Source: Heterotrichella gracilis
Lineage: Eukaryota; Sar; Xanthophyceae; Tribonematales; Xanthonemataceae
DNA length: 37,099 nucleotides
Reading direction: 5' to 3'
Assembly: GCA_032358255.1 (NCBI GenBank)
Contig: JAULBX010027440.1
Coordinates: forward strand, 1 to 37,099
Shown: positions 1-33,916 of the stretch, piece after piece
Layout: the number at the start of each line of letters is the position of its first letter
How positions within the stretch are numbered: position 1 is the stretch's first letter
The notes under the pieces: generated by a model
Database searches by the model: none
Told to the model about the DNA's origin: nothing
Seen by the model: the letters and a program-made list of their open reading frames with translations, nothing else
Made by a program: the position numbers and the translations under genes

Positions 1-148
1 GCACCCCCAACAGTCTCGCGAGCCCGGGTTGGCTCCCTGAATGTGACTGTCAAATAAATCTTGTAAATCTTGTAATTATCTCATAACGTTGTAATGTAGT
101 CCTGATGCTCACTCCCGTCCTCCCGTCACCAAAGCCCGCTTCTCTCAC

Positions 149-3100
149 CTGGGCATGCGCTGGTGCAGCCTGTCTTCCCGTTGCACTCCTTGCACCCCAG
201 CACCTCCTGGCAGCTGCGGCACACCTGGGACCCTAGTAGGGTGTTGTTGAGGTTGGGCACCAGCAGAAAGTTGACGGGGCAGGAGGTGCAGCCCTTGGTG
301 GAGTCGCACTGGGCACACCTATAGTTTAGGGGTTAGGGTTCATGGTTTAGGTGTTTGAGTGGCAGGGCAGGAGGCGTGACCCTTAATAGGGTCTCACTGG
401 GCATACCTGTAGCAAAACCCAAACAAGGGTTACACGGGTTGGAAAAGCAGGTCAAGCAGGGCAAATTGAATGGAGGAAAACAAACAAAAACCGTTTCAAG
501 GGTAACCTGATGCAACCACCTGGCACCATTTGGTTCATAGCTTCAACAAACAGCCAAGCTATTTCACTCCTGGGGCTGGGTGGCCTCGTAGAAAGGAATT
601 CGGGGTATTTGTGGGCAATTGATTAAGGGTTTAGGGTTTGGCTGATGTGGATTCTGTATTTCCCATTGCTACATCAAAAGCTCGAGTTGTCCTTCGTCCT
701 CTCCGGAATTGGGTAGATTGGGGAAAGCTCCACCCAGGATTTGCCTATGGCCATGCCATGTATGGCTATGTTAACCCTAAACCCTGCATCAAAACCCCAC
801 CCACCTGCCATGGTCTGCGCAGCTCTTGCATTGCGTGTTGGCCAGGTTGAGTGGTAGGGTATGTGCTGCACCAAACAGGGTCCCGCCTGAGATTGGCGCC
901 TGGTAGAGCATATATCCAGGGTTGCACTGGGAGCATGCGCCACTGGTCGCAAACGCCCTGCACAGGGGAAATGTGTGCGGCTTGATGCAGGGTTACAATC
1001 AGACGTTGGTAGTGGAGGTCTTTTCATGCAGCTAGCAAGCAGTGCGCAATGCCACAGCCTGGCTCGACACTTACACGAGGAATCACACCAAGAATGGCCA
1101 TGCATGGCTACTTTTGCATGGAAAAGGAGCATCAAAGCCAGAAGCGCAGTTTGGCAGCAAACAGCATGCATGGTGGGAAGGAATGCAGCTTGCAAGCAGG
1201 AGGCGTGGGCTGTTGAGGAAGGAATGAGGTTTGCTATTCAAATGCTTGCAGTGGAGCCCAAACCCCAAACTTCAAGCCCCAAACCCTTTCAGGTATACTT
1301 CTGTTTGCTTTGCCCCTCGATGTGCGGTGGTGCGCTTGCGGTGCGTATGTCAAGCACTCACTTGCAGTTTGCCTTGGTTGAGCGAGGTGAGGCCACGCAG
1401 GTGCGCACAGAGATGGGCACCCTAGGGTCGTCACTGAACCCTAGGTACTTGCCAGTGGGGCATGAGGTGCATCCGACTGTGTCCTTGCAGGCAGAGGCAC
1501 TGCAGCCCAGCTTGGAGCAGGACACGCAGGAAGACCCTGCGCAAGGGTTAGGATGTCACGTATTGTGAAGAGAGCAGCTAAATACTATAAGATTCCTTTC
1601 TAAGGGTCGCGCTTTGCTCGCAGCTGAGCTGTAGCATGCGAGGAGGGCACATTTGCGTGGAGAAATAAACGTTATATGAAGATACTGCGCAGGGCCCAAA
1701 CCATCACATAACAGCCATTAATACAGCTGCATATGATCATCGTGCATAAACCTTAAACCCTAAACCCTAAACCCTAATAGCTGCATATGACCATCTTGCA
1801 CAGACTATCAAACCACAGCCATGAGTACAATGGCTTTTGCCAACGCTGCAGCATATATATACCCAATAGGAAGGGAATAGGACTTGCTGCAGTTACAACC
1901 CAGCCGCACCGCTCACTGCAGTAGCTATATCTCAGCTCTCACTCCAGTACAGCATTGGTGCAGATGATACAAAACCTGCCACTGAAACGGAAAGATGACA
2001 CAAACGGCGCACATTATCTCTAGACACGCCATTTGACAATCTTGTTTGCTGTGACATTGCACCATCCACCCTCTCCTCCCGCTCAGCTCCACCCCCCCAC
2101 CTGTTGCGAATGCTGTGAAGTTGCTGGTGAACACGCCCTGCCTGGCCTCCAAGGCATACGCGTTGTAGTAGAACGCCTCAGCCACCTTGACTGAGCCTGC
2201 AGCAAGGGGGGGATTCCTAATAACCAAAAACAAAGGACCTAAACCCATGAACCCTAAAACCCTACACCCTGACGCGTCGTGGTAGTACGCCTCAGCCACT
2301 ATGGCGGAGCATACAGCAAAGGAGGCGAACCCTGAAACTTACACTTAACAAAAATCCTAAACCCTGCATCTGAGAGTGTGGTCAAGATGTGCATGCACCC
2401 TACTGATACCTTCACCTGTAGGACCCTGATCCCTGATCCCTAAACCCCAAACCCTGGTGCCTAGGCCTGCTGCACATGCGTAATCTCAGAACCCTGATCT
2501 TCTAATCCCTGGACCCTGAAGTCAAAGCCCTGGTGCCTAGGCGTGCTGCAAGTGCGCAATCTCAGAACCCTACTCCCTGAACCCTAAACCCTAAACCCTG
2601 GTACCTTGGCGTGCGGCAGGTGTGCATTCTCAGGATGACGGAATCGGTTTGTGGAGCTATTGGGCGGGACATTGGGGTCGTTACTTCAACCCTTTGACCC
2701 CGAAACAACATCAAGAATATCGTTTTTGTACAGAACTCCCATTGCTATTTTACTGAATCACACCTGTGGGGCATGTGAGGCATCCCAGGAAGTCAGCCGC
2801 AGTGGCGCACCCCAGGGATTGGGGCTTCACGCATCGCTGCACCTTGGCATTGACCAGGACGGTGAGGCCAATGTAGCCCCCATCGGACACTTCGGGAACC
2901 AGCTCCTGCATGAGGATGTCCCCCGCTGCGCATAGTGCACAGCCAAGACCTGCCAGAGAGGAGGGTCAAATGGTAAAGCAAATTTTAATAAATTGTTAGC
3001 GTTCTCTTTTGTTTTACCATTCTACTTTGTTCAATGTTTTCAGCATGAGGGGTCCTTTAATGCACTAACACTGTACGGGTAAACCTCCATGCATGTGGCC

Positions 3101-4968
3101 CCACCTGTGCACCAGCAGCTGGCATGGCAGCAGTGTACACCATTGGGGTTTAGGGTTTAGGGTTGGGTACTCCTAGGGTGGGGTGGGGGTGCGGTGGAGG
3201 GGGGATGGCGGGTTAGGGTTTAGCGCACCTGGCATGCAGCTCAGGGCACTGGGGCAGTGCAGGTCTGAGGTACAGCTGTAGCATAGGGTCTGCAGTACTT
3301 AGGTTTTATGATTAGGGTTTTAGGGTTTAACACATTCACCTGGCATGCAGCGCTTGGCACTGGGGCAGTGCAGGTCTGAGGTGCAGCTGTAGCACTTCGA
3401 CACAGGTGGCACGTGCAGGGTACTTGGGCCTTGGAAATTGGTGCCGATCAGTGTGTACCCAGCGTCGCACCTGTGCATATGGAGGATTAGGGTTTAGGGT
3501 TTAGGCCCTTTGACCTGCAAGTGTCAAGGGTGTAGGGTGTAGGGCGCCGATCAGCGTGTACCCACGCCGCACCTGTGCACAGACAGAGACCCAACTTCAA
3601 TACACTGAGGAGTGAAAGGAACAAAATACATTAACTAACTACACTCCTTGTCTCTAGCACTGTGCGTGTGGAGGTTTAGGGTTGAGGGTTGAGGCCCTTT
3701 GTCCAGCAAGGGTGCAGATATTAGGGTTAAGGGTTTAGGGTTAAGGGTTTAGGTTTTAGGCCGTTTGTCCATCAAGGTTGTAGAGATTAGGGCCCCAGCG
3801 AACCAGGGGGCACAAATGCCAGTGCCATAGCCCTATGGAAGGGTGTGGGTTCCAACTTGTTTGACCAACCCCTGGCCACCTTGACACAGCTGTGCCACAA
3901 GCGCTGCACCACTGCTGGCGCCAAGCTGCGTGAGTGCTTAGGGATTAGGGTTTATGGCACCATTAGGGTTTAGGGTGCACCACTGCTGGCGCCAAGCTGC
4001 GTGAATGCTTATGGTTTAGGGTTTAGGGTTTAGGGTTTGGGGCACCATTAGGGTTTAGGGTGCACGACTGCTGGCGTCAAGCTGCGTGGGTGTACACTGC
4101 AGACAGGCAATACTGCTGCACATGCTGTTACGTGTGAAAAAGATAGGACCCCCTTGGGAAACCTTACTCGGTAGCTAGGGTCAAGGCCCTAGGTCTATAA
4201 GAGGGTATGTAGGGTCTCTACAAGTGTCTCTTACTTGCTACAGTAGCTAGGGTCGACGCACTGTGCACAGTATGGTCTCCAAACCGTAGGAGGTTGGCAC
4301 TGTGCGCAGCCGGCTCTCCCAGCCTTGCATGAGGAGGTGGTAGCAGCCAGTACCAGCCTCCTTGCACCAGCCTCAAGCCCCTCTCCTGTGCCTAGCCCAG
4401 CTTGGCACACCACCAGCAGCAGCAACAACCCTAAAGCAGGGCACACCAGGAGTTACATGTTAGGTTGGAGCCAGGGATGCCGGAGGGCACTTGCAGGGAT
4501 AAAGGCGGCCACAGTAACGTTGGCTGCACATATGCCCCGATGGCATTAAGAGTTTAGGGTTGTGAGCCAGGGAGCATCAAGTACTGTATGCATTGAAAGG
4601 AAAGAACTCTCACAACGAACAGTAGGAGCACTGGTACTACCACTGTTGCCCCGGGCGCACTGATAGCGAGCTCAGCAGCCTTACTATGAAAGGACTGTGC
4701 ATGATGACCCTTTAGCTTGTGAACCCGAGTGTTGGAAACTCTTGCGTGTACACAGAGCGGTGCAGAGAGCCAGGTAGTGGTCTGCGTCACGTTTCGGCAC
4801 GGAAGTTGCAACCAAGCTGGCCGTTGGTGGCCACGCATAGCAGACAGCTCCTAGCTAGGCGTCCTTAGATGCTTGAGCCCAGCTGTATGCCCGAGTATCA
4901 CAGGTCATGGGAGGTTTCGCCTCACCTGCTCCCAGTGCCCTCCGCCTCCACCCATGGCCAGCTGTCAT
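149..4968 (-). CDS. Secreted cysteine-rich protein, tandem paralogue (copy A, 3' part outside window)
   Basis: Exons 4968-4926, 4430-4235, 3470-3340, 2949-2764, 2196-2101, 1536-1362, 957-805 and 318-149 match exons 1-8 of copy B one for one, with the same phases and nearly the same splice sites. They give 383 codons in the window with no stop. The gene must continue past base 1, because copy B's exon 9 lies about 400 bases beyond exon 8. The N-terminus is a signal peptide built across intron 1 (MTAGHG..., LLLLLVVC...). Exon 1 is 18 bases shorter than in B and exon 2 is 15 bases longer, adding one extra CxxC unit (YCAQC) before DPSYC. Exons 3-8 are very similar to B. It shares B's upstream element and has no visible disabling change, so it is probably functional. 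Confidence 0.82.
352..412 (-). repeat. Ghost of copy A exon 8 (5' part with acceptor)
   Basis: ggcaggaggcgtgacccttaa...tctcactgggcatacctgtag resembles the 5' part and acceptor of exon 8 (268-322), with substitutions and indels. The equivalent ghost in copy B lies at 10580-10641, so it is older than the gene duplication. Confidence 0.65.
1751..1777. repeat. Interstitial telomere-type tract (CCCTAAA)n
   Basis: Three to four CCCTAAA units between copy A exons 5 and 6. Similar short tracts occur at 2578-2600, 3485-3505, 4013-4040, 8696-8728, 10139-10160, 12311-12340, 13143-13158, 22059-22075 and 24228-24247, in both orientations, nearly always in introns or intergenic DNA. Confidence 0.85.
2274..2325 (-). 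repeat. Ghost of copy A exon 5 (5' part)
   Basis: gtggtagtacgcctcagcca followed by a decayed acceptor region matches the first part of exon 5. It is closer here to copy B's exon (gtggtagtacgcc) than to copy A's own (gtagtagaacgcc), so it may preserve the ancestral sequence. Confidence 0.65.
3225..3291 (-). repeat. Ghost of copy A exon 3 (3' part with donor)
   Basis: cacctggcatgcagc...ggcactggggcagtgcaggtc... repeats the end of exon 3 (3336-3395) including the donor, with a telomere-type tract on the intron side in both. A second ghost with the exon's 5' end and acceptor lies at 3542-3578. Copy B shows a more decayed counterpart at 13060-13110. Confidence 0.75.
3906..4090. repeat. Three-unit minisatellite with telomere-repeat length variation (copy A intron 2)
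   Basis: Units starting at 3906, 3977 and 4062 share gcaccactgctggcgccaag, then ctgcgtgagtgctta, then a TTTAGGG tract, then ggcaccattagggtttaggg. Periods are 71 and 85 bases. The 14-base difference is two additional 7-base telomere-type repeats in unit 2. Copy B has only one recognisable unit here. Confidence 0.85.
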
Positions 4969-8900: not shown

Positions 8901-11900
8901 CCGCTGTAATTCTCGCACTTCAAGCAGTTGCTTGGGCACTCCGCCATACCGGTGCTTCCAAAATCATCCATCCACCACCAATACCCTTTGGGGATCGGGA
9001 AAAGCTCGAGGCATTTCGCCTCGTCACAAGCCTTGCAATTGTTACCATACTGCACATGCACACACGCAGCAGGGAGGTGTCAACCACAACGGGGTGTAGG
9101 GTTACGGTCAAGGGTCTAGGGTTGCTGCAAGCGCAAGAGGAATCGAGTTGCTGTACAACCATGTCACATAATGTGCGTGGCAGGGGTCAGACAAATCCCC
9201 CTATCTAATGTTAGGGATTTGAGGATTTGATGCCACATACTGTGCGTGTGGAATGCATGGACCAACCCAAAGTTGCCGTTATCAAATTCCTTGTAAACTA
9301 TGTAAACACTCTCAGTAAGGGCTCCCTGGCAATCACCTGCACAGCTGTATGCACCACCTTGGCAGCACAGGCACTGCTGGCACCTAGCTCTGCCTGCCTG
9401 CTCATCTAATCCAATCCAATCAATCCACCCCAATCTAATCTAATCCAATCCAATCCAATCCAACCCAAATAGCACAGCTTTATGCACCACATTTGCAGCA
9501 CAGGCACTGCTGGCACCTAGCTCTGCCTGCCTGCTCCCCCATCCACACAAATTTTGCATGCTTTGTAAGATTCCACTCACGTGCTGCGAACAGTAGTCTT
9601 GCGTTCCCACTTGCGGGCTGCACAGCGCGCCGTCGAGTGAGTAGCCTGTGGGGCAAGTGAGGCAGTTGCCGTCGTCGTCGCAAGTGTCGCAGGTTAACCA
9701 CTGGTAGCAGTATTCGCACTTTGGCCACCTGTAACAGCTCACACATGTGTTCTGGATGGATTTCAAATAGGCAGTGATGTAGCGGGTGGGAGGGGGCCAA
9801 TAGGCTGCCTGGGTCATCCTGGCCCCCGAATTGCACGCGGTGCAGCCTCTTTTTGGGCTGAAGGTTGCGCACAGGCTGCCGGGGCGGGGTGCGCATGCCT
9901 TGAGGCCGGCCAGCAAGGGGTTGGCTGGGTTGGAAGAGGTGACAGTGGCGGAAAAGGTGTTGCCTGCACACATGGGGCGGACATGCGAGAACACAAAATA
10001 GGTAAATATACCACTTGATTATACATGTAACAAGAGAAAGGTGGGTTGGACATGGGTGAACGGATAATAAACAATAAGATAAAAAACAATGCTCACGTCC
10101 TGCTTTCTAGCGGTAGTGCTGAACAGCACGCCTCAGTTTGGGGTTTAGGGTTTAGGGAATAGGGTTTGCAACAACCATGTGCAACTCCCGGGCAGAGTGG
10201 ATTGAAGCCCCAGGAGGCATGCAAAGAGCAACCCGCGCTCTTCATGCGGGAAGCGTGAAATAGTCTAGATAGGCATGTTGGTATGGCAACCTGATGATCC
10301 GTCATAAAAACCCCAACCCTTCTCTTATCCCTAACCCTCACCCCTCTCTAACTTCTCTCACCTTGGCATGCGCTGATGCACCCTATTGTCCCGTTGCACT
10401 CCTTGCATCCCAGCACCTCCTGGCAGCTGCGGCACACCTGAGACCCTAGTAGGGTGTTGTTGAGGTCGGGCACCAGCAGGAAGTTGGCGGGGCAGGAGGT
10501 GCAGCCCTTGGTGGAGTCGCACTGGGCGCACCTGTGGGTTAAGGGTTTAGGGTGCAGGAATTAGGGTTTAGGGGGTCTGGGTGTCCACGCTTGTTGGGAC
10601 ACGAGGCGCACCCCTTGGTAGGGTTGCACCGAGCACACTGTGCCATAACCCTACACAAGGGTTACGGACAAGGTCATCAAGCAATGGGAAAGGGGATAAC
10701 TAGATAAACAAAAGGACCAGCTCAGCCACAATTGGACTTTGGTGCAGTACCTAAACCCTGCTCCTTACTCCTCCTGTGCCACCCACCTGCCATGTTTTGC
10801 GCAGCTCTTGCACTGGGTGGTGGCCAGGTTGAGTGGCAGGGGGTGCGCTGCACCAAACAGGGTCTTGCCTGAGATTGGCGCCTGGTGGAGCAAGTAGCCA
10901 GGGGTGCACTGGGAGCATGCGCCACTGACAGCAAACGCCCTGCACAGGGAGAATGTGGGCGGCTTGATGCAGGGTTAAAATCATACTACAGTAGTGGAGG
11001 TCTCACCTAGCAAGGCGTGCGCCTGGCGCAATCTGGATCGGAGCGTACACGAAAGAAACACAGCAAGAAAAGGCATGCGTCTTTCTGCATGGAAAGCAAC
11101 AAAGCCAATAGCACAGTTTGGGCAGGAAATAGCATGCGGGGTGGGAAGGAATGCAGCTAGTTGTAAAGTTCAGAATGAGGGATACAAGCGGGTTCCAAGC
11201 ATGTTTTGGGCTATCGAGGAAGGAGGGAGGTTGCAATTCAAATGCTAGCAGTGGATCCCAAGCCCCAGCGCAAACCCCATACCCTAAACGCTGAAACGCA
11301 AAACCCTCAGGTATCCTATTGTTGCACATGCTTTGCTCCTCGATGCGCGGTGGTGCGCTCAAGCGAGTGCGGTGCACCTGACAAGCTAGCCAAGCACTCA
11401 CTTGCAGTTTGCCTTTGTGGAGCGAGGGGGGCCCACGCAGGTGCGCACAGAGATGGGCACCCTAGGGTCTTTGCTGAACCCTAGGTACTTGCCAGTGGGG
11501 CAGGAGGTGCATCCGACTGTGTGTTTGCAGGCAGAGGCGCTGCAGCCCAGCTTGGAGCAGGAGACGCAGGAAGACCCTGTGCAATGAGATCACAGACATT
11601 GCTACGCAGAGCATTTGTCGATGCTGCAGCACGCATGTAGCAGGGCGTACGGGAGGATAAGCACCCCTGGTGGTATCAGATTGCTGCTGTTGGCATCCCT
11701 CAAACATCCTCACTTTGGTCTGTGTTATCAATCAAACGCAGCATGGGTGCACTTGATAGAAAATATGCCACGTACAAATGACTGAAAACCACAAACGGCA
11801 TTGATGTTCACTAGTAACACCAGCTCGCGTGCCTTCCCGCTAGACCACCACCCCCTCTCCCGCAAGGAGTGTGAGGGTAACAGATTGCTGCAGTTGGAAC

Positions 11901-14365
11901 CCCGCCAGATCCTCACTGCAGTAGCGTTCTCCAAGCTCTCAATTAAGTGAGCTGCGCGTGGGTGCAGATGATAGAAAGTCCGCCAAATAATGGAATGAAA
12001 ACGCAAATTGGCTTTAATTATCCCTAGCAATGCTATTTAATAACACGTGTGCCTTGACATTGCACCATTTCCCCTCTCCTCCCGCTCAGCCCCACCCCCC
12101 ACCTGTTGCGTATGCTGTGAAGTTGCTGGTGGGCATGCCCTGCCTGGCCTGGAAGGCATACGCGTTGTGGTAGTACGCCTCAGCCACCTTGACTGAGCCT
12201 GCGGCAAGGGGCAGCCTTAAAACATTATAAAAAACCCTAAACCCTGCATCCAAGAGAGTGGCCAAGCTGTGCATGCACCATACTGAAACACTCACCAGGA
12301 GGACCCTAACCCCTGAACCCTAAACCCTAAACCCAGGTTACTGGGCCTGCTGCAGGTGCACAACCTTAGGATCACATAATGGAATTGTGGAGCGTTTTGG
12401 ACAGGAACCATCGGTTTGTGTTAATTTCAATCCCAATGCTGCTCCCTGAGTTGCACCTGTGGGGCACGTGACACAGCCCAGGAAGTCAGTCGCTGTGGCG
12501 CATCCCAGGAATGTGGGGTTTGAGATTTAGGGTGTAACATAAACCCCGGCAATCTCACCTTTGGGGCATGTGAGGCAGCCCAGGAAGTCAGCCGCAGTGG
12601 CGCACCCCAGGGATTTGGGCTTCACGCATCGCTGCACCTTGGCATTGACCAGGCTGGTGAGGCCACCATAGCTCCCATATAGCTCTGGAACCAGCTCCTG
12701 CATGAGGATGTCCCCTGATCCGCATAGGGCGCAGCCCAGGCCTGCCAGAGAGGAGGAAGTGTTCATGGTCAGTCTATGGAGTGCAAACAAATTTAAAGCA
12801 TGGTGCTTTGCAGTGGTAAACCAATCCCCTATTTGTGTACATATTATACCTAGGGCGAAAGAGCAATGCCAGCCCTTGTCATGTCACCAAATGTACCCTG
12901 GCGAGAATGGCTCTGAATGCATTTTGCAGTATTCTCGCGAGTATGTCCTTCCCTGCGCATTTTACACTATTGTAAACCCTATGCTTCAGATGCAGCCATG
13001 CCTGTCAGGAGGGGCGGTTCATGGATAGGGTGAGGGGTTTGGTGTAGGGTTTGAGGGTTGCGGTGGGAACCCGGCATGCAGGTTCCACTAGAGCAGCGCA
13101 GGCCCAAGCATAGGGTTTACGATATTTAGGGTACACAAATGCAGGGTTTAGGGTTTAGCGCTCGCACCTGGCATGCAGCGCTGCGCACTGGGGCAGTGCA
13201 GGTCTGAGGTGCAGCTGTAGCACTTTGACACAGGTGGCACGTGCAGGTTGCGTGAACCTTGAATATAGTTAGCGCCAATCAGCGTGTACCCAGAGTCACA
13301 CCTGTGCATATTCAAACAAACAAATATGTAAATTGATAACTAGCTTTTTAAACCCGATATCTATGAATACATGGATGCCTGCGCTCCTTGCCTCTGGCAC
13401 CATGTGGAGGGTTTAGGGGTCAGATTTTAGGGTTTAGGTAATTTAGGCCCGTTGTCCCACATATGTCAAGGGTTAAGGGTTTAGGGCGCCCAGTGAACCC
13501 TAGGAAGCACCGATGCCAGTGCCAAAAGCCATATTTAAAGCTGTTGGTTCCATTCCACTTTACCAGTGCCAACCAGCCCCTTGTCACCTCGACACAGACT
13601 ACGTGCGGTGCACCACAGATGCCCAGACACCCAGATGCAAACTACAGAGAGGCGGCACTGCAGTGCACATGCTGGTGCCTGTAAAGGTGACTGGCAGGAC
13701 TGTACCCTCAGCATGTCCTTACTTGCTGCAGTAGCTAGGGTCCGATACGGTATCACTCGGTGGGGGTGTGCACTCTATGCAGCCGGCCCTTCCAGCCTTG
13801 CAGGAGGAGGTGGTATCAGCCAGTGCCAGCCTCCTTGCACCAGCCTCCAGCCCCTCTCCAGCGCCTAGCCCAGCGTGGCACACCACCAGGAGCAGCAGCA
13901 ACCCTTCAGCAGGGCACACCCGTGGGGTTAGTTGGGTTTAAGGGTTTAAGGGTTTAGGACTCTGGAGGGCACTTCTAGGGTGGACAAACCAAGCTAGGAC
14001 AGCGTCCCAAGGGCAGCAGTGGCAAAGGAGGAGGGTTGTTTGTCTTTAGGCCAGGGGGTTATCGTGAAATGATGGTGGGTGAAAGCGGGGTGAATGCCCG
14101 CATAATCCAGTGGCAAGTCCCTCCAGTGGCCTCAGGACGCTTCAAGCATCACGGTGACTTGGCTCGCATAAGTATGTCTGGCAAAACAACATACTATGGG
14201 GAGGTGGAGGTGGCTCGCAGAATAAGCTGCAACTGCCTGCTCCCAGATAGGACCCTGTTTTGTGCCTCAGCGTAGTCCTAGCCTAGTAGGAGGTTTCGCC
14301 TCACCTGCTACCAGTGCCCCCGGGCTACGCCTCCAGCCGTGCCATGGCCCTTGGCCAGCTGTCAT
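5905..14365 (-). CDS. Secreted cysteine-rich protein with furin/GF-receptor-like CxxC repeats (copy B, complete)
   Basis: Exons in coding order: 14365-14305, 13903-13723, 13301-13168, 12741-12559, 12198-12103, 11576-11402, 10939-10787, 10531-10362, 9963-9581, 9049-8759, 8043-7942, 7506-7313, 7037-6936 (weak), 6643-6418, 6237-5905. Phases agree throughout and give about 927 aa ending MMCVGA-stop. The ATG at 14365 was chosen because exon 1 (20 codons) joins exon 2 in phase into a classic signal peptide: basic start, run of L/V, then AGLGAGEG near residue 38. The same join works in copy A. The rest is dense in CxxC and GCxxC units (e.g. CVDGxGCxxC twice near the C-terminus; CPTGY, CKPGY, CKKGYF), typical of growth-factor-receptor/furin-like cysteine-rich folds. 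No C-terminal membrane segment was seen, so it is inferred to be secreted or in the extracellular matrix. Exon 13 uses a weak acceptor (AAAAG) and a GTACAC donor and may be wrong. Ligand and function are unknown. Confidence 0.85.
6338..6731. repeat. Direct intron repeats flanking copy B exon 14
   Basis: tgcatccaatgaggtgatga and atgatcacaagta recur at 6338-6398 and 6661-6731, in the introns on either side of exon 14 (6418-6643). The exon is thus boxed between direct repeats. Exons 14 and 15 also both encode CVDGxGCxxC. Confidence 0.8.
7187..7250 (-). repeat. Ghost of copy B exon 12 (3' part with donor)
   Basis: ctcacatgcagtaccccgtg... echoes the exon 12 end and donor at 7308-7370 (cgcacatgtagtacccgggc). 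A cagccggggcttccggagca segment is also shared in form. Confidence 0.6.
9339..9536. repeat. 65-bp direct repeats around an AATCC microsatellite
   Basis: Near-identical segments at 9339-9403 and 9472-9536 (both with caggcactgctggcacctag) flank a run of aatcc/aatct units at 9404-9465. It lies in the intron between exons 9 and 10 of copy B. Confidence 0.85.
10580..10641 (-). repeat. Ghost of copy B exon 8 (5' part with acceptor)
   Basis: gggacacgaggcgcacccct...gttgcaccgagcacactgtg parallels the exon 8 5' part at 10490-10535 and the copy A ghost at 352-412. Confidence 0.65.
12450..12515 (-). repeat. Ghost of copy B exon 4 (3' part with donor)
   Basis: cacctgtggggcacgtgaca then cagcccaggaagtcagtcgc repeats the exon 4 end at 12555-12610, with point changes. 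Confidence 0.75.
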
Positions 14366-15624: not shown

Positions 15625-18600
15625 ATGGCGATGCTACAAGGCTTTTTCAAGCTCTCGCCCATCGCCCGGCGGTGTGCGGGCACTGCGGGAGGATCATTCG
15701 CGCGGGGGCAGTCCAATGCCACCCACATCCTGCCAGTGCCTGGGGCACAACCTGCGTCTCGTTTTTCGACTGACGTGGCCGAGGAGGATAAGACTATCAC
15801 AGTGGATGTACGCAGTGGCAAGCTTTGCACTGATTGTGACAAATCCCCCGCACTGCAACACCCACCCACCTGCACATTTTGTCACATATGCATTGCACCC
15901 TCCAAGCACCTGCTGCCTAACCCTCCTATCACCACATGCTGTACACCTTTCAAACAATTGCTGCCCCCCTCTTCCTATGTTCAGGGATACCCGTACCCAA
16001 ATCACAACTGGTGTCAAATCCCCTCAAGTGATAACCGAACAAATGAGCTCACATTTGTTCGGTTTAGACCCCTTCCCCCCCCTTGCAAATAAACCACCTG
16101 CCACCATACGCCAAGGCAAACCCCAGACAAACCTAACAAGGACAACCACCTGGGCGCTGCCTGGTTCTTTCTCCACACACACCGGCGTACCTGTCAAAAC
16201 TCTAACAACCAAAACCCTAAATTCAACCCTAGAGCGCTCTTCTTGCAGGTAAACCTTACCAGGGACATCCCTTAGACAACCCGGTCAAACACCTCCTTCC
16301 AGTCACCTGCAGGGATCCCAGCAGCAACTTAGGAGACATATGGAAACACAAGCGTTAGAAACCCTTGAGGACCCTACAACGCACCCTGCTGGTGCAGGTA
16401 AGCCCTTCAGGGCTTCACGAAAATCCCCTTCCCCCCTCTCCACAAGTCAAACCCTACCAGGTCCATTGCCTAAACACCTGCCCGAGACCTCCTTCGCAGT
16501 CACCCGCAGCGAGCTCTCCAGCTACCTTGGGGACAAGTACCCTGCCAGAACCGTAAAACCCACCCTGCTTCCCACAGGTAGAGTCCTTGTGAGGGTTGCA
16601 CTAAACCCTAAAAATCAACCCTCTGTCATGCAGGTGAACCCTTATCAGGGCCACCGCTTGGATACCCTACCCGAGACCTCCTTCACAGTCACCCGCAGCG
16701 AGCTCATCCAGTATTTTGGTGACATGTACCGCATGCGGCGCATGGAGGTTGGCGCGGACATGCTGTACAAGCAGCGCCTCATCAGGGGCTTTTTGCACCT
16801 GGCGGATGGGCAGGAGGCGGTGTACGTGGGTGAGAAAAACCCTATCAAATCCCTGGTCAAAACCTTAATGAAACGCCCTATGAGAAACCCTGTTTGAACC
16901 CGGGTTTGGCAACATGGTACTGCATGCGGCGCATGGGGGATGGCGCAGATATGTTGTTGTGTTGACCTTCATTGATACAGGCAGGGAAACTGGGGCCTCC
17001 CAAGGCGACAGCATGACCCAATCCTACCGAGACCACTGCGACTACGTGGACAAGTGGTGAACGTGGGTGAACAGACCCCCAAAAAACGTGCAAAAGAGGG
17101 AGAAGAGTAAACCCTGACACAAACCGCATTTTATTTCCCCAACACCCTCACCAATTCACCTTATTCCAACAGGCATGGAGGCTGGGGCCTCCAATGGGGA
17201 CAGCATGCTCCAGTCCTACCACGACCTTTGCAACTACATGGCCAGGGGGGAACAAAATGAAGAGGTCAAAAATTGAAACTAGGCAGATGGATTACTTTTA
17301 ATGCTAGCGCACAATTGTTTTCAATCTGACTGAAAACCCTTGCCACCTGCACAGGCATGGAGGCTGGCGCCTCCAAGGGGGACAGCGTGATCCAGTCGTA
17401 CCGCGACCACTGCAACTACGTGGCCAGGGGGGGTAAAGTGAAGGAGGTCATTGCGGAGCTCATGGGCAGGGTGGATGGCGCGGTGAAGGGCAAGGGGGGG
17501 TCAATGCACATGTACCTGAAGAGGGGGAATTTCTACGGGGGGCTGGGGATCGTGGGCGACCAGGTGCCCCTGGGGGCGGGGCTGGCGCTGGGACACAAGT
17601 GAGTGGCACTGGGGATTTGGAAATGGCTTGAAGTGGGGAAATGTGGGTTTGTTTTCATGTAGATGGAGCGGTGGAAGAAGAGGGGGGTGCTTCAATATGC
17701 ACATGAAAATTTGGGATTTTTACAAAGGGCTGGGGATGGTGGGCGACCAGGTGCCTCTGTGGCGGGGCGGGCGCTGGAACACAAGTGGGTGGCGCTGGGG
17801 ATTGAGAAACGGGAGGAAAGGTGTTTCTTTTGCATGGGGTTGCGGTGGTTCCGAGGAGGTCTCAGTAGCGGTGCATTGCGCCGCAACTTCAAAATAACCC
17901 CATATATACGCTTCATTTAGCTTCAACATGTCTGCGCTAAACACCACAGTTTGCCCCAGAGGAGGAAATCAAACATGAAAATGCAGATATTACCCCAAAA
18001 TTACACTGGACTCAGCTGATTTGTCTCATCAGGTACCGCAAGGACGGCGGCGTTGCTTTTGCCATGTAAAGCGTTGGGACGGCCAAGCAGGGCCAGGTGT
18101 TTGAGGCATTTAACACATGTCTATCCTGAACCTTACAATTTGCCCCCAAAGCAGGAATAAACGCACAATCGTACAAATCACCCCAATGGTACCCTGGACT
18201 CGACTGATTCTGCCCCCTTCATCAGGTACCGCAAGGATGGCGGCGTTGCTTTCGCCATGTATGGCGACGGTGCCGCCAACCAGGGCCAGGTGTTTGAGGC
18301 CTTCAACATGTCTGCCCTGCTGAGCCTGCCAGTGGTGTTTGTGGTGGAGAACAACCACTACGGCATGGGCACCGCTGAGTGGAGGGCGGCCAAGGTGTCA
18401 AAGTACTACACGCGCGGCGACTACATCCCAGGTGCGGATTTGGGTATAGTATTTCAGGATTTCGAGGTAGGATTGGGTCATATTTTGGTGTCATTTTTGG
18501 TGTTTTTTGGTCAGCCTGCCTGTGGTGTTTGTCACAAACACCAGTGGTGGAGAACAACCACTATGGCCTGGGCACCGCTGAGTTGCGCCTGCCCGGGCTG

Positions 18601-20160
18601 CCAAGGTGTCAAAGTACTAGACAAAGGGGGACTACATCCCAGGTGCGGATGTCTCCGAATGTCATCGGGTATATTCTTTTTACTTTGTTCTACTGTTTTG
18701 GTGTTATTCACCGCCTTGGCTTAGGATTTCAATTTTGAGCAGGGCTGAGGCTCAAGGTGGCAAATGAGCATGTTGAACCCCCTATCCACACACTTTAGGC
18801 CTCGAGGTACCTGGCATGAATGTGTGCGTGGTCAACTTTGCCCTGGCCAGCGAGCCTCTTTGTCATGGAGCTTGATCGCTAAACCCTAAAACCCTAGACC
18901 CACCAACCTAAGAACCTCACCTGGAGATTAACACGCTCCACTTTGAATAACATCCTGCAGGCCTCAAAGTGGATGGAATGGATGTGTGTCCGGTGAAGCA
19001 GGCAACCAAATTTGCTCCCAAGTTTGCCCGGGCCAATAGAGCCCTCATCATGGAGCTAAAACCATAACACTTCAAACTTGCAAACCCTGTACCCGGTTGA
19101 CACCTACACCCTAACAAAACCCTACCCTGCAGGCCTCAAGGTGGATGGCATGGATGTGTGCGCAGTCAAGCAGGCCACCAAGTTTGCGCGCGAGTTTGCC
19201 CTGGAAAACGGCCCCCTCATCATGGAGCTCGACACCTACCGCTACCACGGCCACTCCATGTCAGACCCTGGGTCCACCTACCGCACCCGGGACGAGATTG
19301 CGCAGTGGCGACAGGCCAGGGACCCGATTGAGCACATCAGGTGCGTGGGGTTAGGGTCTTGGGTGTTAAGTGTTAAAGGACCATCTGGCTAGGGTATGTG
19401 GACTTGGAATAGCCAGTTCCGATTGAGCACAGCAGGTGCGTGGGGTTTAAGGGAACATGTTTAGGGTTTTATGTATCTGTCTAGGGTTTTGGGGCATGCC
19501 TGATTTAAATTTTTGAACTGTGGCAACAGGGCAGGGACGTTGTGGAGCATGTGAGGTAGAGGAGCAACTATAGGCAGTTGACAGAGTTTGAATATGTGCT
19601 GTTGTGTTGGTCAATTTTTAGGCGCCTTGTTCAAGACCTAGGCCTGAGAGGGTTTTGAGGGACTCTCTTGTTATACATTTGGCTCTGCCTTACCCCTGTG
19701 GCCCTCCCTGCAGGAACATCCTGCTCAAGTTTGAGCTGGTGGATGCCGCTGAGCTGAAAGCCATCGAGCGAAAGGTGAGCAGCCACTAGCTGAGCTACCT
19801 AGTTGGGTGCACAGCAAACTACTGCTGGCGCCAACACATATTCGTACGCAAACAAAACGGGCAATACATCAGCGCGCATATGCATATCAAGCCAATTGAT
19901 GGCCCAGCAGCATATTGGAGGTAGCAGACACCTCTCGAGCTGAACTCAAATGTCAAGCTATTTGCCTTGAAACATTGTTGCCGTGCTTTCTTTAGGTGAA
20001 GAAGGAGGTTGACAGCGCCATAGAGGAGGCCAAGAACAGCCCCGAGCCCCCCACGGAGCTGCTGACCAACGACGTGTATGTGGAGACCCTGGGGGCAAGC
20101 GCCAGGGGGGTGGACCAACAGACATGGCACAAGCTCACCGGTACCACCATGTCACAGTGA
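15625..20160 (+). CDS. PDHA: Pyruvate dehydrogenase E1 component subunit alpha, mitochondrial
   Basis: Exons 15625-15807, 16634-16829, 17355-17598, 18226-18431, 19133-19340, 19714-19774 and 19996-20160 join in phase to 420 aa, normal for the family. With E1 beta it decarboxylates pyruvate using thiamine diphosphate and acetylates the E2 lipoyl group, feeding the TCA cycle in the mitochondrial matrix. Residues 1 to about 50 ([17 protein letters not shown], then S/A/R-rich) look like a mitochondrial presequence; [10 protein letters not shown] opens the mature region as in mitochondrial E1 alpha. Key motifs: [34 protein letters not shown]; the ThDP/Mg motif GDGAANQG (221-228) through ENNHYGMGT (249-257); the phosphorylation loop [12 protein letters not shown] (312-323). 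The site-1 serine is kept (Ser318), and the usual site-2 serine position appears to be Thr325. The introns hold many broken partial copies of the exons (listed separately); exons were chosen as the intact, in-phase copy. Confidence 0.96.
16033..16064. repeat. Perfect 13-bp inverted repeat in PDHA intron 1
   Basis: aaccgaacaaatg (16033-16045), loop agctca, catttgttcggtt (16052-16064). It sits in a C/A-rich intron with no other strong structure. It may be a remnant of a small inverted-repeat element or an intronic RNA hairpin; no target-site duplication could be assigned. Confidence 0.55.
16245..16560 (+). repeat. Two ghosts of PDHA exon 2 (5' part with acceptor)
   Basis: Copies at 16239-16345 and 16445-16555 match the real exon start at 16634-16720. 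The second keeps cccgagacctccttcgcagt and cacccgcagcgagctc; the first is more decayed. Both lie in intron 1 upstream of the real acceptor. Confidence 0.85.
16906..17260 (+). repeat. Ghosts of PDHA exon 2 (middle) and exon 3 (two 5' copies)
   Basis: 16906-16965 repeats the middle of exon 2 (gcatgcggcgcatggg). 16976-17060 and 17168-17252 repeat the acceptor and start of exon 3 (ggaggctggggcctccaa), each with frame-breaking changes. The intact copy starts at 17355. Confidence 0.85.
17690..17800 (+). repeat. Ghost of PDHA exon 3 (3' part with donor)
   Basis: Contains a match to gcacatg...agggctggggatggtgggcgaccaggtgcc... and a donor-like cacaagtgggtgg, repeating 17500-17606 with deletions. A second, shorter echo follows near 17830. 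Confidence 0.8.
18026..18125 (+). repeat. Ghost of PDHA exon 4 (5' part with acceptor)
   Basis: catcaggtaccgcaaggacg... repeats exon 4 from 18221 on. The frame is broken (Met-TAA where the real exon has Met-Tyr), and a block at the GDG motif is altered. The flanking intron (tgcccc..agcaggaa..aa) is also repeated before the real exon. Confidence 0.9.
18512..18652 (+). repeat. Ghost of PDHA exon 4 (3' part with donor)
   Basis: Repeats cctg..gtggtgtttgt, ggagaacaaccacta and aaggtgtcaaagtacta, then the donor ctacatcccaggtgcgg. It has an insertion, a changed stretch and a stop. Confidence 0.9.
18797..19070 (+). repeat. Two ghosts of PDHA exon 5 (5' part with acceptor)
   Basis: 18797-18885 (poor) and 18957-19070 (better, with caggcctcaaagtggatgga and ccctcatcatggagct) repeat exon 5 from 19131. 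Telomere-type ccctaaa tracts lie between the copies. Short downstream echoes of the exon's donor end lie at 19411-19445 and near 19530-19560. Confidence 0.88.
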
Positions 20161-20214
20161 ATTCACCCTAAGGGTTTGCGACGATTGTTATGGTTGAAGT
20201 GAGCGCCCATCACG

Positions 20215-21359: not shown

Positions 21360-24300
21360 TTAGGCCTCTGCATTTGGCACCACCCGCCAGCATGCGCTGG
21401 CCTCCTTTCCTTGCCCATTCCTGGTGGGGCAGGCGGCGAAGCAGGGGGTGTTAAAGGCTGCATCCCCATCTTGGGGCTCGGGGGTCTTCCCAAATGCGAA
21501 TTGGCAGCTCAAATCCTCATAGTTGGGGGTCATGGTGAGCTGGAGGCCCATGTCCCGGGCAAAAAACTCCTGAGGACGGGGAAAGAGAGACGGTGCGGGT
21601 GTTTTAAGGTGTAGGGTGCGCAGTTTGGGCTGTGGATCAAAGTGCAGAGGAGCGGGCAACAGAGCAGGCGTATGAGGTTGGAAATAGCCCCATCTTCATT
21701 TCCCCCCTACACGCTGGTGTATAGGGTGGAAACGTGCCCTAAACCCCTGCCCCATCAGGCCCCCATGATGCACACAATGCACCGGGCTGGTTACATAAAC
21801 CATCCCGCTTGGCCATAGGAGCAGGCGCAGGTGCAGTAGGGTGGAGGGTGTTAGGGACCAGGATTGCCCTAGGGTTTTCCTTTGTAGGGTTGCAGGGCCA
21901 AGCCTGTTTTGGACAGCAGGGTTCAAAGTGCAGGGTTCAAAGTGCAGTCCCCAAACACAGGGGATTTACCTGTGTTGGTATCTTGCAGCTGTTGATGCAT
22001 ATGGAGGCGCAAGGTCCGGACTCCTCAAGGTACCGGCACCTGCAGGGGCATAAGGGTACTGTTAGGGTTTAGGGTAACAGGGATTAGGGTTTTAGGATGG
22101 TTCAGAATCCTCAAGGTACCGGCACCTGCAGGGCCAAGGGTATTGATATGGTTTAGGGTTTGGGACTAATCCTCAAGGTACCGGCACCTGCAGGGGGGCA
22201 AAGATTTCTAGTAAGTAGGGTCAAGGGATCTGCTAATTTGGTGGTACTGCTAGAACGCATGTTAGGATAACAGGCTTAGGTCGGAATGGGTTTATGTTCG
22301 AGGCACATGGGTGTGCATGGATTTGGCTCTTGCAGTGCCTGTGCTACCAGTGCCACCCGTGTATTTCCTTGCAGGATCAAGGTCAGGCATTTTGGGGTAT
22401 GATTAGGGTTTGCGGGCTTTGACGTTGATGAACAGACTGATTACTGCCGGTGCAGCGCAGTAAGAGGCCCACACACAAGGCTAAAGCCCTTAGTAAGGGT
22501 ATCGCCGTCAGCAGCTGCTCACCTAAGACCCTAAGGGTTTAAGGGTTTAGGGTTCACGCACCTTTCCACCAGCACCCCTTGGCCTGTGGCGATGCCCCCC
22601 CCGTCCACCTCCACATCATTCACCTTGCTGGGACCCATCAGCCATTGACAGGTCAGCGCAGTGACCAGGGCATTCATGCGGCAGCTCAGACCGGGGAGGG
22701 GCTGGGCAAACATGACCTGCAAAACCAGTGAAATTGAAATTAAACGAGATTCTGGGCTGATGCCTAGCCTTGATTTACTTGTAGTACTCGAGCGCCTGCA
22801 CAAATAACCTGGGCCCAGGCGAAATAACCCTAATCGTGTTCAGCCACTAGCACGCCAGCGCAGCGACCTGGGCAATTCATGGAAGGGGCTGGGCAAACAT
22901 GACCGCGGTAACATCATCATCGTCATCAATGATGATCTTGACGCAACATCATCATGATAGACACAGGAATCAAGCTGTGCGCTGCATGTGTTATGAGCAT
23001 GTGTAGTTGAGCGCCTGTACACAAAACCCTGATGCCTAGGCGCAGGCACGCAAAACCCTGATTGCAAAACCCTAACGTCAGGGCAGTGACCAGGGCATTC
23101 ACGCGGCAGCTTCGACCTGGGAGGGTTCTTGCACGCATAACATGCAAAATAACAGGAAGAACCTTCTGCAATAGCATTCACATCCTGTGTCGCATAGAGA
23201 AGTGGGCATGCGCACACCAAAAGCCTTCACCCTAAGCGCACACAACAAAACCCTACAAGCAGCAAGCAGGGCAACCTTGCGGCGGCAGCTCAGCCCAGGA
23301 TGTGCCCCAGCAAACATGAGCGTAGACGCCTGTGATCTGAAGCGGGTGGACATTGAAAGCTGGATATTGCATCTTGCTTGCGATTCTAAAACAAAAAGCA
23401 TTGTGGATCATTCTTGCTCCACGTTCCCGTTTGGGTATATTTGATTACTAAAATCAAGTACAATCTTGTGATCTTGATTACCCCCCCGCACCCACCTTGA
23501 ACGCCCCCGGCAGCCATAGAGGGAACAGCGATTTGAGTATCCTCCTGGTGGTGACCTGCACCTCCCTCGCAGGCCTAGTCGGGGCGTTGAGCTGCCGAGT
23601 GAGGTCGATGATGGCATCATACCTACATACATCACAAGCCCAATGGTATTATTTTCCATCAAAAAAGGTGTGTATTTCCTCAACAGGAGGTGGTAAGGGT
23701 GGTTGGATTTAAAAATTTAGTTTGAAGATTGAAGTGAAGGGTTGAGTATCCTCCTGGTGGTGACCTGCAGCTGACCGATTCGGAGCATTGAGCTGGCGAG
23801 TCAAGTCGATGATGGCGTCATACCTGCATACATCACCAGTACAAAAGCGCAATCTTTCATCAATAGGGCCCGGGTTTTGCGTGCTGGCATTGTGATTGCG
23901 GGCTGGCATTGTAATAATCCGCCAAAGCATTCGGCACCCAATTACATTCAGAGGTTCCGCATGCTACCCTACACGACCCCGTTTGCGCACTGCGGGGCGT
24001 GGGCGCCGCATGCACACAGGCTCCTGGGTTGTGCCATACACCCACGCCTGACCCTGGACCCCTTGGGCACATGCATGACATTGCTCGCTGCACGACCTCC
24101 CCTCGCATGCTGCCAAGGGGTGCGCATACCATGTGTTGAGCCACAGTGCCAACCCGTTGTGCATGCCGTACCTATCCCATCCTTCTAATGAACCTAACGC
24201 TATGCCAACATTGCCATGCATGACGACGGGTTTAGGGTTTAGGGTTTTCACCCACCACGCCAGAGCTTTGGTGCTGCCTTAATGCATGCACAAGTTTCTC

Positions 24301-25229
24301 TTTGAAACAACCCTGAAAGCCACGACGCCATTCTGGAGCAAAACTGCTCGTGCCGCAAACGGGGAAAAGTGCCTTGCGTCGCTCGGACGCATGGCGTTTT
24401 TTTCCGCGTACGCGCCAAGAGCAGTTTGCTCCTGAAGTGCGTGCAAGCACATGCTTATCCCCCACTGATAAATACCCTGGCACCGTGGTGCAACAGCAAG
24501 TGCAGGCGCCATCCCATGGGTGCATGCATCCCATTGTGCAAGTAACACGCGTTGCCAACCCTATAAACCCTGCTCAAAACCCTAGACCCAGACCTTGCCT
24601 GGCCGGTTCCAAGACCAAGGCATCATCTTCGACCTGAACAGCTGTGCAAAAGTCCTGTTGAGGGAACTGTGCAACGCCCCTTTCCACCCTCGCACCCACC
24701 ACACAAACACCCACACCCCACATATGCATGCATATCGCCGCGCCCCCACGCGCAGCCCTAGGGTTTAGGGTTACAAACCTCCGCGCTTAGCTCCGAATCC
24801 TGGCTCAGCTCGCTCACCATCTTTGATTCAAATAGCTGTGTGATGGCCCTGTTGAGGGGCTGTGCATTCCCCACCCGTTCCCCAACCACAATGCCACCAC
24901 CAAAGCATGCATTGCACTGCGCGTTCCCCCACAATCAGGGTCCTAGGGTTTAGGGTGAAGGCTTACCCGCTTAGCTCCGAGTCCTGGCCCAGCTCATCCA
25001 CCATCTTGGATCTGAAGAGCTGTGTGATGGCCTTGTTGAGTGGCTGTGCGTCCAGCTGGGTATAGTCTGGTGGGGGTTGGCTGGGACTGGGTGCATACTG
25101 GCACCGCACTGGGTGGTGGCGGGGGGTGGTGCTTCGGGTGGCGGGACGGCGGTGGAGGTGTTTTCCACCTGGTGCTGTGGCGGTGGTAAAGGGGGTGCGG
25201 TGGGGCGCTGCCAGCATGTGGGCGCCCAT
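21360..25229 (-). CDS. Beta-carotene isomerase D27-like protein (DUF4033), plastid
   Basis: Exons 25229-24967, 23622-23496, 22716-22562, 22039-21970 and 21569-21360 join in phase to 274 aa, about the usual D27 length. D27 proteins are iron-containing plastid isomerases converting between all-trans and 9-cis beta-carotene. In land plants this is the first step towards strigolactones; algal paralogues may serve other carotenoid steps. Family marks: GYDAIIDLTRQL (exon 1-2 join), LTCQWLMGPSKVNDVEV (exon 3), CRYLEESGPCASICINSCKIPTQ-type cysteine motif (exon 4), and LTMTPNYEDLSCQFAFGKTPEP then PCFAACPTR (exon 5). Residues 1 to about 55 are rich in R, S, T, P and H with few acids, fitting a chloroplast transit peptide; the ATG at 25229 is the in-frame start giving this. 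All introns contain partial repeats of neighbouring exons. It is convergent with PDHA. Which D27 subfamily it belongs to cannot be told here. Confidence 0.92.
22100..22200 (-). repeat. Two ghosts of D27 exon 4 (5' part with acceptor)
   Basis: cctcaaggtaccggcacctg + cagg occurs at 22023 (real exon border), 22110 and 22173. The separating intron pieces carry tttaggg tracts. The matches are exact over about 24 bases, so these are recent. Confidence 0.92.
22850..23325 (-). repeat. Three ghosts of D27 exon 3 (5' part)
   Basis: Copies near 22856-22905, 23072-23150 and 23262-23322 repeat the first part of exon 3 (22655-22720): cagtgaccagggcattca, gcggcagct, gggctgggcaaacatga. Each retains different bits. 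Confidence 0.8.
23734..23832 (-). repeat. Ghost of D27 exon 2
   Basis: gagtatcctcctggtggtga, cctgca, then ttgagctg..gagt..aagtcgatgatggcgtcata and an acceptor-like end repeat exon 2 (23530-23630), but with changes and lacking the exon's 3' end. Confidence 0.85.
24600..24875 (-). repeat. Two ghosts of D27 exon 1 (3' part with donor)
   Basis: 24783-24870 repeats the end of exon 1 (cttagctccga, gctgtgtgatggcc, ttgag) and is preceded by cctagggtttagggtt, exactly as the real exon end is preceded by cctagggtttagggt at 24942. An older echo lies at about 24618-24675. Confidence 0.85.
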
Positions 25230-28754: not shown

Positions 28755-28829
28755 GACCTGCTTGGCTGCTAACCCGCAAGGCCTGAGCCCCAACACAACC
28801 GCCATATCCGGGGATACATCACGCCAGCA

Positions 28830-31800: not shown

Positions 31801-33916
31801 CCCGACGCTGCCATGGCAGACCACGCGCGCCAGCTGGCGCCCTCTCCCTTCGCCTGCGCTGACCCCTCCCGGGAGATGGCTGGGACCCCCTTCAATCCCC
31901 AGGAGTATGACCGCCTGTCCCCCGACCACGGCATGTTTGGCCGCACTGGCCGCATGGCGCCGCGCAGCTACAGCAACCCAGATGCCATGGCCCTCCCTCC
32001 AACACCCCAGGCCATGGGTGGCTACCACATGGGCCAGTACCAGCGGGAGCAGTCTCACTCTGCTGCGGCGACGCCCTTTGGGGGCCTCTCCAGGTAATGG
32101 CAGGGAGCAGGGGAAAGGATGCAAGTTTTCTGTAAGGTGATAGTGTAAGTACTAGTTTTGTGTTTTTTAAGTAACATATTTGTTGTGAGGTCACGACTCC
32201 AGGAACGGCTCACCCTATATTTGCAAATGCAGGCCATTAAGAGACTGTTTAACATCATGTATTGCATGACCAGACGGGGCACCCCTGAGCAATTCAGTGA
32301 GCATGGAGTGCATGCATCTAGCTAAGCTTTCTATCCCATATTCTCCTTCCAGGCGCGGCTCCGGCGCTGTGAGCGACTACATGTACGACGTGGGTCAGGA
32401 GGGGATGGCCATGTCAGCATTTGGGGCGCAGCTGCCACGCCAGGGATCAGGCGGCATGTCAGACATGGGCTTGGGCCCTTTCACGGCACCAATGGCCTGC
32501 CAACCCCTGCCGGGAGGCTACCCCATGAGCCCCTTCGCCACACCCATGAGCTGCCAGGTAATGGTGGAGGACATAGCGGACTCTCTGCTAACTCCTCTTT
32601 CTTGACCAACGTGCTTGTTCAAGAAAAGGCTGCGTAGCTATCTATCTATTTATTCATTTATATATTAATATTTTACTTGCCAGGGGCTGCCGGGAGACTA
32701 CCCCATGAGCGTGCCAATGATGGGCCAGGCCCTGCCGGGAGACTACATCGCGAGCCCATTCACAGCGCCCTTGACCTGCCAGCCCCTGCAGGGCCCGGGA
32801 GGCTACTCCATGCAGCCCTCTCCTGGCTTTGCAGCTCCCCGCAGCTTCTCTGTGTCATCACAGGAGCAGATGTACCAGATGGCCGCTGGGTACGTTGTCT
32901 GAACCCTAAACCCTAGGAGGTACAGCGATGACCGCTGGGTACATTGTCAGAACCCTAAACCCTAGGAGGTACAGCGATGGCCACTGGGTACGTTGTCAGA
33001 AAATCAAGCATATATGTTTTTCATGCATTTGCTGTCCCATGTTATAAAATAACAGGAATATGGGCAGACATCCCTGATGATCATCATATGTGTTTAGCAG
33101 GCCATATGCCATTCTTGAATGCAGCATATTGCAAGTTTGACTCCAAACATGTGTGGCTTGACAAAGTACTACCCAATCACCTGCGTCTTCCACTATCATC
33201 TGCCCATGCATGAAGCCATGTATGGATGTATCTAGCAGCTTGCAGATGATGGCTCTCTTTGCGCAGGTCCTTTGGAGGCTATGGCGCCCCGGGCATGGGT
33301 GGCTTTGCAGGTCAGGCTGGGGAGCAGCTGCCCCATAGCTATTGCATGGATGGCATGCCAACCATGATGGGCACACCCGCGCCCTCGCTCACCGCTCCCC
33401 TGGCCGACTGCCACCTCATGGCCGCATCCCTGCAGCACAACCGCGACCTGGCACAGGTGAATATATACATGTCTTACAGGGGGGTACGGGATAACAACCC
33501 TACTGTAACAGGGTAGCTGCACAGCACCCGTGGATGTTGACACTTTACTTATGCCGCTCCCATTGTAAAAAGAATGTAACCTTGTCTTGTGCAACTGTGG
33601 AAGAATCCGGCTGGGGAGCAGGCTTTGCTGTCTGCGCGCAACAATAGAAAATGACCAGCATGTTTTATTATCAATACTTAAGAATAATGTTTGCTTTATT
33701 ATCAATACTTAAGAATAATGTTTATAATGTTTGCGATGGCCGCAGGTCATGCAGGATCTGGGTGCACAGCAGGCCACCGCGCCCCTGCGCAACCACCCTG
33801 GCCGCGCCTACGGGGATGCTGGCAGGTCCCAGAACAGCGCCCACGCCTCCGACAAGGGCGAGGGGTCAATCACCCACAGCCCATGCGCCCCTTCCTCACC
33901 CCAGATTAGGAGCTAG
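28830..33916 (+). CDS. KH-domain RNA-binding protein with long low-complexity C-terminal region
   Basis: Exons 28830-29058, 29389-29461, 29605-29660, 29853-29959, 30241-30437, 30847-31324, 31597-32093, 32353-32557, 32684-32889, 33267-33456 and 33746-33916 join in phase to 802 aa. One type I KH domain spans about residues 103-172. It starts LLRITLLAAGF, has the RNA-contacting IIGPSG loop (GxxG), then MSVRAITKQTGADIKSW, and ends in a helix with LGLEIICDAVDRYKQL. The rest is poorly ordered: Q/A/S-rich (about 220-400), P/S/M-rich (400-560), then a repeat region (about 580-665) with units like FTAPMACQPLPG and GDYPMS. Such a single KH plus disordered tail fits a post-transcriptional regulator of mRNA in nucleus or cytoplasm; targets are unknown. 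The start ATG is the first in a frame that stays open to the first donor. Orthologue identity is not assigned. Confidence 0.9.
32870..33000 (+). repeat. 49-bp tandem array at the KH exon 9 donor
   Basis: The border gatggccgctgg|gtacgttgtc is followed by two more copies with ctggg at 32886, 32935 and 32984 (period 49). Each spacer contains accctaaaccctagg. The last coding bases of exon 9 and its donor are inside the unit. Confidence 0.92.
33664..33723 (+). repeat. 31-bp tandem duplication before KH exon 11
   Basis: tttattatcaatacttaaga + ataatgttt occurs at 33664 and 33695 with no mismatch. It ends 22 bases before the exon 11 acceptor, so it may contain duplicated branch-site sequence (atacttaag). 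Confidence 0.92.

Follow-up and report, generated by a model that had tools for sequence, protein, structure and literature searches.

Introns of the xanthophycean alga Heterotrichella gracilis carry decayed partial copies of the exons beside them (ghost exons, or ghosts), and these copies probably record how the cell mends broken DNA. The window in which they were noticed is the whole of a contig of 37,099 nucleotides (C493; GenBank JAULBX010027440.1) in a 68.5-Mb draft genome of 903 contigs. According to the reading that we favour, with a probability of roughly 0.55, staggered breaks would be filled in and end-joined to give direct duplications, a shorter class of which would be patched by telomerase, and duplications spanning an exon border would persist because their outer copy is spliced out. 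The telomeric patch and a drop in size near 210 bp are elements absent from the initial annotation, which had described the ghosts and explained them by a tandemly duplicated segment across a single exon-intron border, with the outer copy decaying.

Abundance of local direct repeats

The self-comparison covered 297,099 bases, namely the window and 26 arbitrary 10-kb stretches at set coordinates of numbered contigs, with telomere heptamers and simple repeats left out. At a threshold of 33 bits and offsets below 210 bp, this genome-wide count gave 142 direct pairs (108 in the stretches, 34 in the window) versus five inverted ones, all five in the stretches, and dinucleotide shuffling of a somewhat smaller set (the window and 24 stretches) yielded no pair at all. 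At least one direct pair was present in 22 of the 26 stretches, the density being uneven (0 to 21 pairs per stretch, with none in four). The direct partial exon copies are thus real, have withstood the comparison with shuffled sequence, and are a property of the genome rather than of particular genes, as had been claimed for the window. They are adjacent direct copies of limited size, as expected of duplications made by fill-in at staggered breaks.

In the window, 46 direct pairs were found with at least 30 bits, offsets below 1,200 bp and telomere heptamers masked. Since pairs overlap, clusters were formed for counting: the window repeats fall into 28 clusters, with copies 69-100% identical (mostly 70-97%), and the whole set into 119, of which 117 have their best pair at less than 400 bp. 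The best offsets span 59 to 333, the smallest detectable offset being fixed by the score threshold, and they drop off near 210 bp, with 39 at 150-209 versus 6 at 210-269. A nucleosome-length unit was considered, as many offsets lie at 170-200 bp; the peak was not significant against a smoothed bootstrap (P = 0.81), and only the drop at about 210 bp stands.

Geometry at exon borders

A three-periodic coding model called only 9% of the window coding, gave no clear pattern of zones and was dropped; homology-anchored genes were used instead. These were the two genes with homology-fixed exons, namely PDH E1-alpha in the window and the gene of the chromatin remodeller CHD1 (human CHD1 match, 2.4e-185), which fell by chance in L011, the most repeat-rich stretch. 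With at least 30 bits and offsets below 700 bp, the 53 pairs classified comprise 40 with one copy in a real exon and 13 with neither (several of these match ghost with ghost); none joins exon to exon. It had been proposed that an upstream ghost consists of the acceptor and the 5' part of the exon, and a downstream ghost of the 3' part and the donor. This rule is followed in 33 of the 40 pairs, with a tolerance of 12 bp: 19 of 24 upstream ghosts extend to the acceptor, and 14 of 16 downstream ones to the donor or the gene end; the border is not reached in the other seven, for example at 16905-16957. Duplication of a whole exon with both splice sites was absent from the 53 pairs in the two genes, a cut CHD1 exon at the end of L011 apart. 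The direct-repeat counts and the border geometry together support tandem duplication across one exon border and decay of the outer copy.

A ghost at an offset below 230 bp accompanies 15 of the 18 exons in PDH E1-alpha and CHD1. The claim that ghosts pervade every gene is too strong for the gene at about 28.8-33.9 kb, because repeats are few between 25,050 and 36,290, where the screen gave only those at 32475-32818 and an array at 32878-32997. In CHD1, 4,830 of the 6,736 bases of intron belong to units of copy plus gap (offset below 230 bp), and in PDH E1-alpha 1,878 of 3,273 do. At L011 8143-9249, a CHD1 exon is followed by an array of copies of its own 3' part plus donor at a spacing of about 189 bp.

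Were units of matching size placed at random, 35% of the tolerated placements would span a border, compared with 26 of 33 pairs seen (P = 5e-7, with some dependence among the pairs). The excess persists if border pairs are allowed a period of detectability 1.5 times longer than that of others (P = 9e-5), and is lost if the period is four times longer (P = 0.14). The mechanism therefore need not target borders, because the excess loses significance when intron-only pairs fade four times faster, and the border preference may reflect survival and detectability rather than targeting.

Telomeric patches in the joints

The heptamer TTTAGGG is the true telomere repeat of this genome: at least seven perfect units occur in 11 contigs, in all 11 at most 140 bp from the contig end and in the right orientation. 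These contigs (C70, C140, C173, C460, C607, C609, C660, C712, C717, C770 and C872 of genome G000) probably end at chromosome ends. Genome-wide, with overlapping windows and contig ends counted, there are 5,629 double units (5 for the reversed control), divided between the strands as 2,845 and 2,784, and 834 triple units (0 for the control). The internal tracts are thus identical to the chromosome-end repeat, as interstitial telomeric sequences are.

The gap between two copies often contains this repeat when the copies are close. At least 12 telomeric bases were found in the gap of 21 of 44 pairs with offsets below 120 bp, versus 8 of 49 pairs with offsets of 120-214 bp. The telomeric density of the gap is 28.5% at offsets of 50-89 and 19.8% at 90-119, compared with 5.1% and 2.1% in the outer flanks, a 5- to 9-fold enrichment of the short-class joints over their own flanks. 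The copies are telomere-free because the heptamers were masked, and their telomere content carries no information. The cleanest case, L005 4478-4570, consists of 34 bp, a 25-bp joint of which 24 bp are TTTAGGG repeat, and the same 34 bp with one change; the same anatomy is seen in other short pairs of very high similarity, at L032 2312-2395, at L036 3049-3147 and, in the window, at 3906-4011 and 22106-22195. The last of these harbours the exact 24-mers reported at 22110 and 22173, which extend to 28 bp at 100% identity (22106-22133 and 22168-22195, with a third copy at 22022-22048); on the minus strand the copies read CCTGCAG followed by 18 bases of an apparent exon start.

Replication slippage or template switching could make the copies, with telomeric motifs that are common in introns coming to lie between them by chance. 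We consider this unlikely, even though telomeric heptamers cover 1.9% of all sequence, the longer pairs are poor in telomeric filler (3.8% and 5.9% in the gaps, 1.6% and 4.2% in the flanks), and one joint holds an ATCCA microsatellite in place of the telomere repeat. Chance would not readily account for the enrichment of the short-class joints over their flanks, nor for a heptamer in 42 of 96 gaps, where 2,000 relocations gave 16.6 on average and never more than 30 (25-locus set). It is also at odds with the converse test, in which the 75-bp flanks of telomeric tracts were alike far more often than nearby controls (35 of 158 versus 46 of 955; P = 2.5e-11), although these controls are imperfectly matched, because the non-coding filter (no stop-free frame of at least 70 codons) leaves 4-21% of each locus and 113 of the 158 tracts themselves lie in such frames; at positions elsewhere in the same loci, 26 of 1,264 were alike. 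An earlier run with 130-bp flanks, which included eight loci fetched for their tracts, gave 59 of 172, compared with 0 of 1,032 mismatched, 0 of 172 inverted and 122 of 1,032 at random positions. Restricting the 130-bp test to the window weakened it (score 32: 17 of 44, P = 0.0007; score 40: 11 of 44, P = 0.08). The joint with the ATCCA microsatellite belongs to a 65-bp duplication, 95% identical, at window 9339-9536.

The layout of copy, insert and copy would also be produced by a mobile element that carries telomere repeats, such as an introner-like insert, and makes long target-site duplications. This is improbable, as the copies measure about 21 to more than 100 bp and the fillers, compared by eye, share no family beyond the telomere unit. 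Dispersed copies of one family, by which introners are recognized, were likewise not seen with the one query used, 283 bp of PDH ghost plus exon, which matched itself, its tandem copy and one 53-bp stretch in its own genome.

By eye, no rule relates the strand of the patch to that of the gene. The patch might aid splicing, because CCCTAAA is pyrimidine-rich and resembles a branch point.

Recurrence among paralogues and unequal decay

Two paralogous Cys-rich genes in the window, A (139-4450) and B (10352-13920), both on the minus strand, form a natural test pair, as their sets of duplications differ. In the alignment, 2158/2272 and 3440/3543 are present in A only and 12454/12556 in B only, and 277/365 is shared by both, which supports the claim that the process is recurrent. 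It also speaks against an assembly artefact, as does the divergence of the copies, which are mostly 70-97% identical and occur in 22 of 26 stretches; despite a draft of 903 contigs, such an artefact is scarcely credible.

Several observations weigh against the break-repair origin favoured here. The class with offsets of at least 120 bp is mostly without a patch. The comparison for an empty site covers only the paralogues A and B. The filler at 3487-3548, beside 3440, resembles intron sequence of B at 13427-13490, about 120 bp further on, and thus may not be new, so that the event at 3440 was more than a simple insertion. CTC1 (CTC1_2) was not found in the genome, in a search that gave no match anywhere and is hence uninformative. 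Finally, in 21 border ghosts the exon parts are 77-97% identical to their source, and the adjoining intron is truly alignable in only about 8, a figure reached from 9 of 21 above the control maximum, two of them over 5 bp only, with L011 8457 added from a longer comparison.

This last contrast is not explained by simple neutral decay of the outer copy, as initially proposed. At L011 9926, for example, the intron shows no homology at the offset where the exon part is 97% identical. The offsets do not differ between ghosts whose intron is alignable and those whose intron is not (8 versus 12, sorted by hand with the offset-95 pair omitted; P = 0.70). Conversion of the ghost by its exon would explain the contrast; copies that truly stop at splice junctions would be the stranger case. 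The 3226 ghost shares 93% identity with its own exon copy and 74% with the paralogous ghost in B, which points to conversion by that exon or to a fresh duplication. The reverse contrast is seen at L011 5718-6174, a downstream duplication with a nearly identical intron part and an exon part of 91%.

Between real exons and ghosts (22 hand-listed pairs), differences number 48 of 595, 41 of 598 and 110 of 593 at first, second and third codon positions; 104 of the 199 are synonymous, 90 change a residue and 5 make a stop. This pattern lies near that of a neutral ghost beside a constrained exon, with a slight excess at third positions. That excess, and the better conservation of exon parts than of adjoining introns, would suit the partial copies being alternative exons under selection, which is very improbable given the residue-changing and stop-making differences and the lack, among the pairs examined and the cut CHD1 exon apart, of whole-exon copies with both splice sites.

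Proposed mechanism and known systems

A staggered break would leave the same stretch on the complementary overhangs of both ends, and filling in both overhangs and joining the ends would yield two direct copies. In the shorter class, telomerase would extend one 3' end before joining, giving the observed anatomy of copy, TTTAGGG patch and copy; acting on such ends, it would leave patches of both orientations, which is what is observed. Duplications lying wholly within an exon would break the gene and be removed by selection; border-spanning ones, to judge from their geometry, would persist, the outer copy decaying and the intron growing. The enzymes, the order of the steps and the role of selection are what we infer; the genome gives matches to TERT and Ku. 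Rather more doubtful is the wider proposal that telomerase-patched repair of staggered breaks is a main engine of intron growth in this lineage, the introns of some genes being built of successive border duplications, many of them telomere-glued, and gene conversion keeping ghosts recognizable.

Small tandem duplications from staggered-break fill-in have reportedly been described by Vaughn and Bennetzen 2014 and Schiml 2016. In mouse and human cells, small tandem duplications result when CST-guided Pol alpha-primase fills in 3' overhangs (Schimmel et al. 2021, PMC8355091); these are, like those described here, local, direct, limited in size and independent of prior repeats, whereas the telomeric filler of 21 of 44 short joints has no counterpart in the excerpts of that paper. 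Mammalian short interstitial telomeric sequences are inserted by break repair, most commonly with deletions and with few target duplications (6 of 130 rodent and 4 of 25 primate loci; Nergadze et al. 2007, PMC2246262). They share with the tracts of H. gracilis the position inside chromosomes, at what in the alga are probably repaired breaks, and, sometimes, a duplicated target; in contrast, 35 of 158 tract flanks are still visibly duplicated here and exon borders are involved. Judging by this comparison, internal breaks may be sites of telomerase action more often in this alga than in mammals.

In Daphnia, new introns arise from staggered breaks, with repeats of 4-12 bp shared by intron and exon (PMC4202315). 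Direct repeats at staggered breaks and the lengthening of introns by repeated events are common to both systems, but the copies reported here, about 21 to more than 100 bp long, include splice sites and are situated in introns that already existed. A second splice site likewise arises when an intron is gained by tandem genomic duplication (reviewed in PMC3443670), whereas here it is existing introns that grow longer. PMC11782384 also reports direct repeats close to splice sites. The components are already known, and their combination and abundance look new. Among the papers listed in a literature search, judged by title and start of abstract and with subscription papers mostly outside it, none described telomere-patched exon-border duplications. 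If the favoured reading is true, break repair and intron growth could be dated and counted directly, as duplications of many ages lie beside their source exons with the repair signature in the joint, which bears on the old question of where intron sequence comes from.

Genes and features of the window

The PDH E1-alpha gene has an open frame of 420 amino acids (human PDHA1, 1.2e-112; Pfam E1_dh, 7.3e-110), its exons are backed by tblastn of algal homologues, and its closest named matches are in green algae, for example Micractinium, Parachlorella and Coccomyxa (59-66% identity). A D27-like gene on the minus strand was recognized on concatenated pieces (PF13225, 1.3e-15); the apparent exon at 22106-22195 lies outside those pieces, and we take it to belong to D27. 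No Pfam family was found for A or B, no Pfam match above the cut-off for another Cys-rich region, none for the tested pieces of the gene at about 28.8-33.9 kb, and no homologue in a protein search with a single exon.

Table 1. Genes, ghosts and local repeats in the window
Feature	Position	Strand	Remark
PDH E1-alpha gene	15625..20160	+	exons 15625-15807, 16634-16829, 17355-17598, 18226-18431, 19133-19340, 19714-19774, 19996-20160
Two decayed partial copies of exon 16634-16829	16291-16338, 16477-16541	+	spacing about 190 bp; aligned part begins 32 bp inside exon
Downstream ghost, middle of exon 16634-16829	16905..16957	+	without donor
Two upstream ghosts of exon 17355-17598	16962-17062, 17155-17268	+	acceptor + 5' part
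Downstream ghost of exon 17355-17598	17659..17812	+	3' part + donor
Upstream ghost of exon 18226-18431	17926..18128	+	intron alignable; internal stop codon
Downstream ghost of exon 18226-18431	18544..18650	+	3' part + donor
Two upstream ghosts of exon 19133-19340	18797-18835, 18954-19057	+	
Downstream ghost of exon 19133-19340	19419..19442	+	3' part + donor
Ghost of last coding exon, beyond stop codon	20212..20257	+	
D27-like gene: acceptor + 18 bases of exon start, three times	22013..22196	-	telomere-like patches between
D27-like gene, repeat copies	22638-22717, 22840-22904, 23077-23149	-	
D27-like gene, repeat pair	23533..23839	-	offset 209
D27-like gene, three repeat copies	24621..25049	-	offsets 194 and 184
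Cys-rich gene A, pair	277..411	-	telomeric joint; counterpart in paralogue B 10489-10536, 10596-10642
Pair, paralogue A only (alignment)	2158..2325	-	telomeric joint
Pair	3226..3394	-	telomeric joint; paralogous ghost 13069-13102
Pair, paralogue A only (alignment)	3440..3579	-	telomeric joint
Three copies	3906..4092	-	telomeric joints
Pair, paralogue B only (alignment)	12454..12622	-	partly telomeric joint
49-bp unit, 2.5 copies	32878..33001	+	CCCTAAACCCTA in each joint; putative donor

A perfect 31-bp tandem duplication with no filler lies at 33664-33723, apparently in an intron of the gene that begins near 28.8 kb. A run of about 33 G (37067-37099) closes the window and may be an assembly edge.

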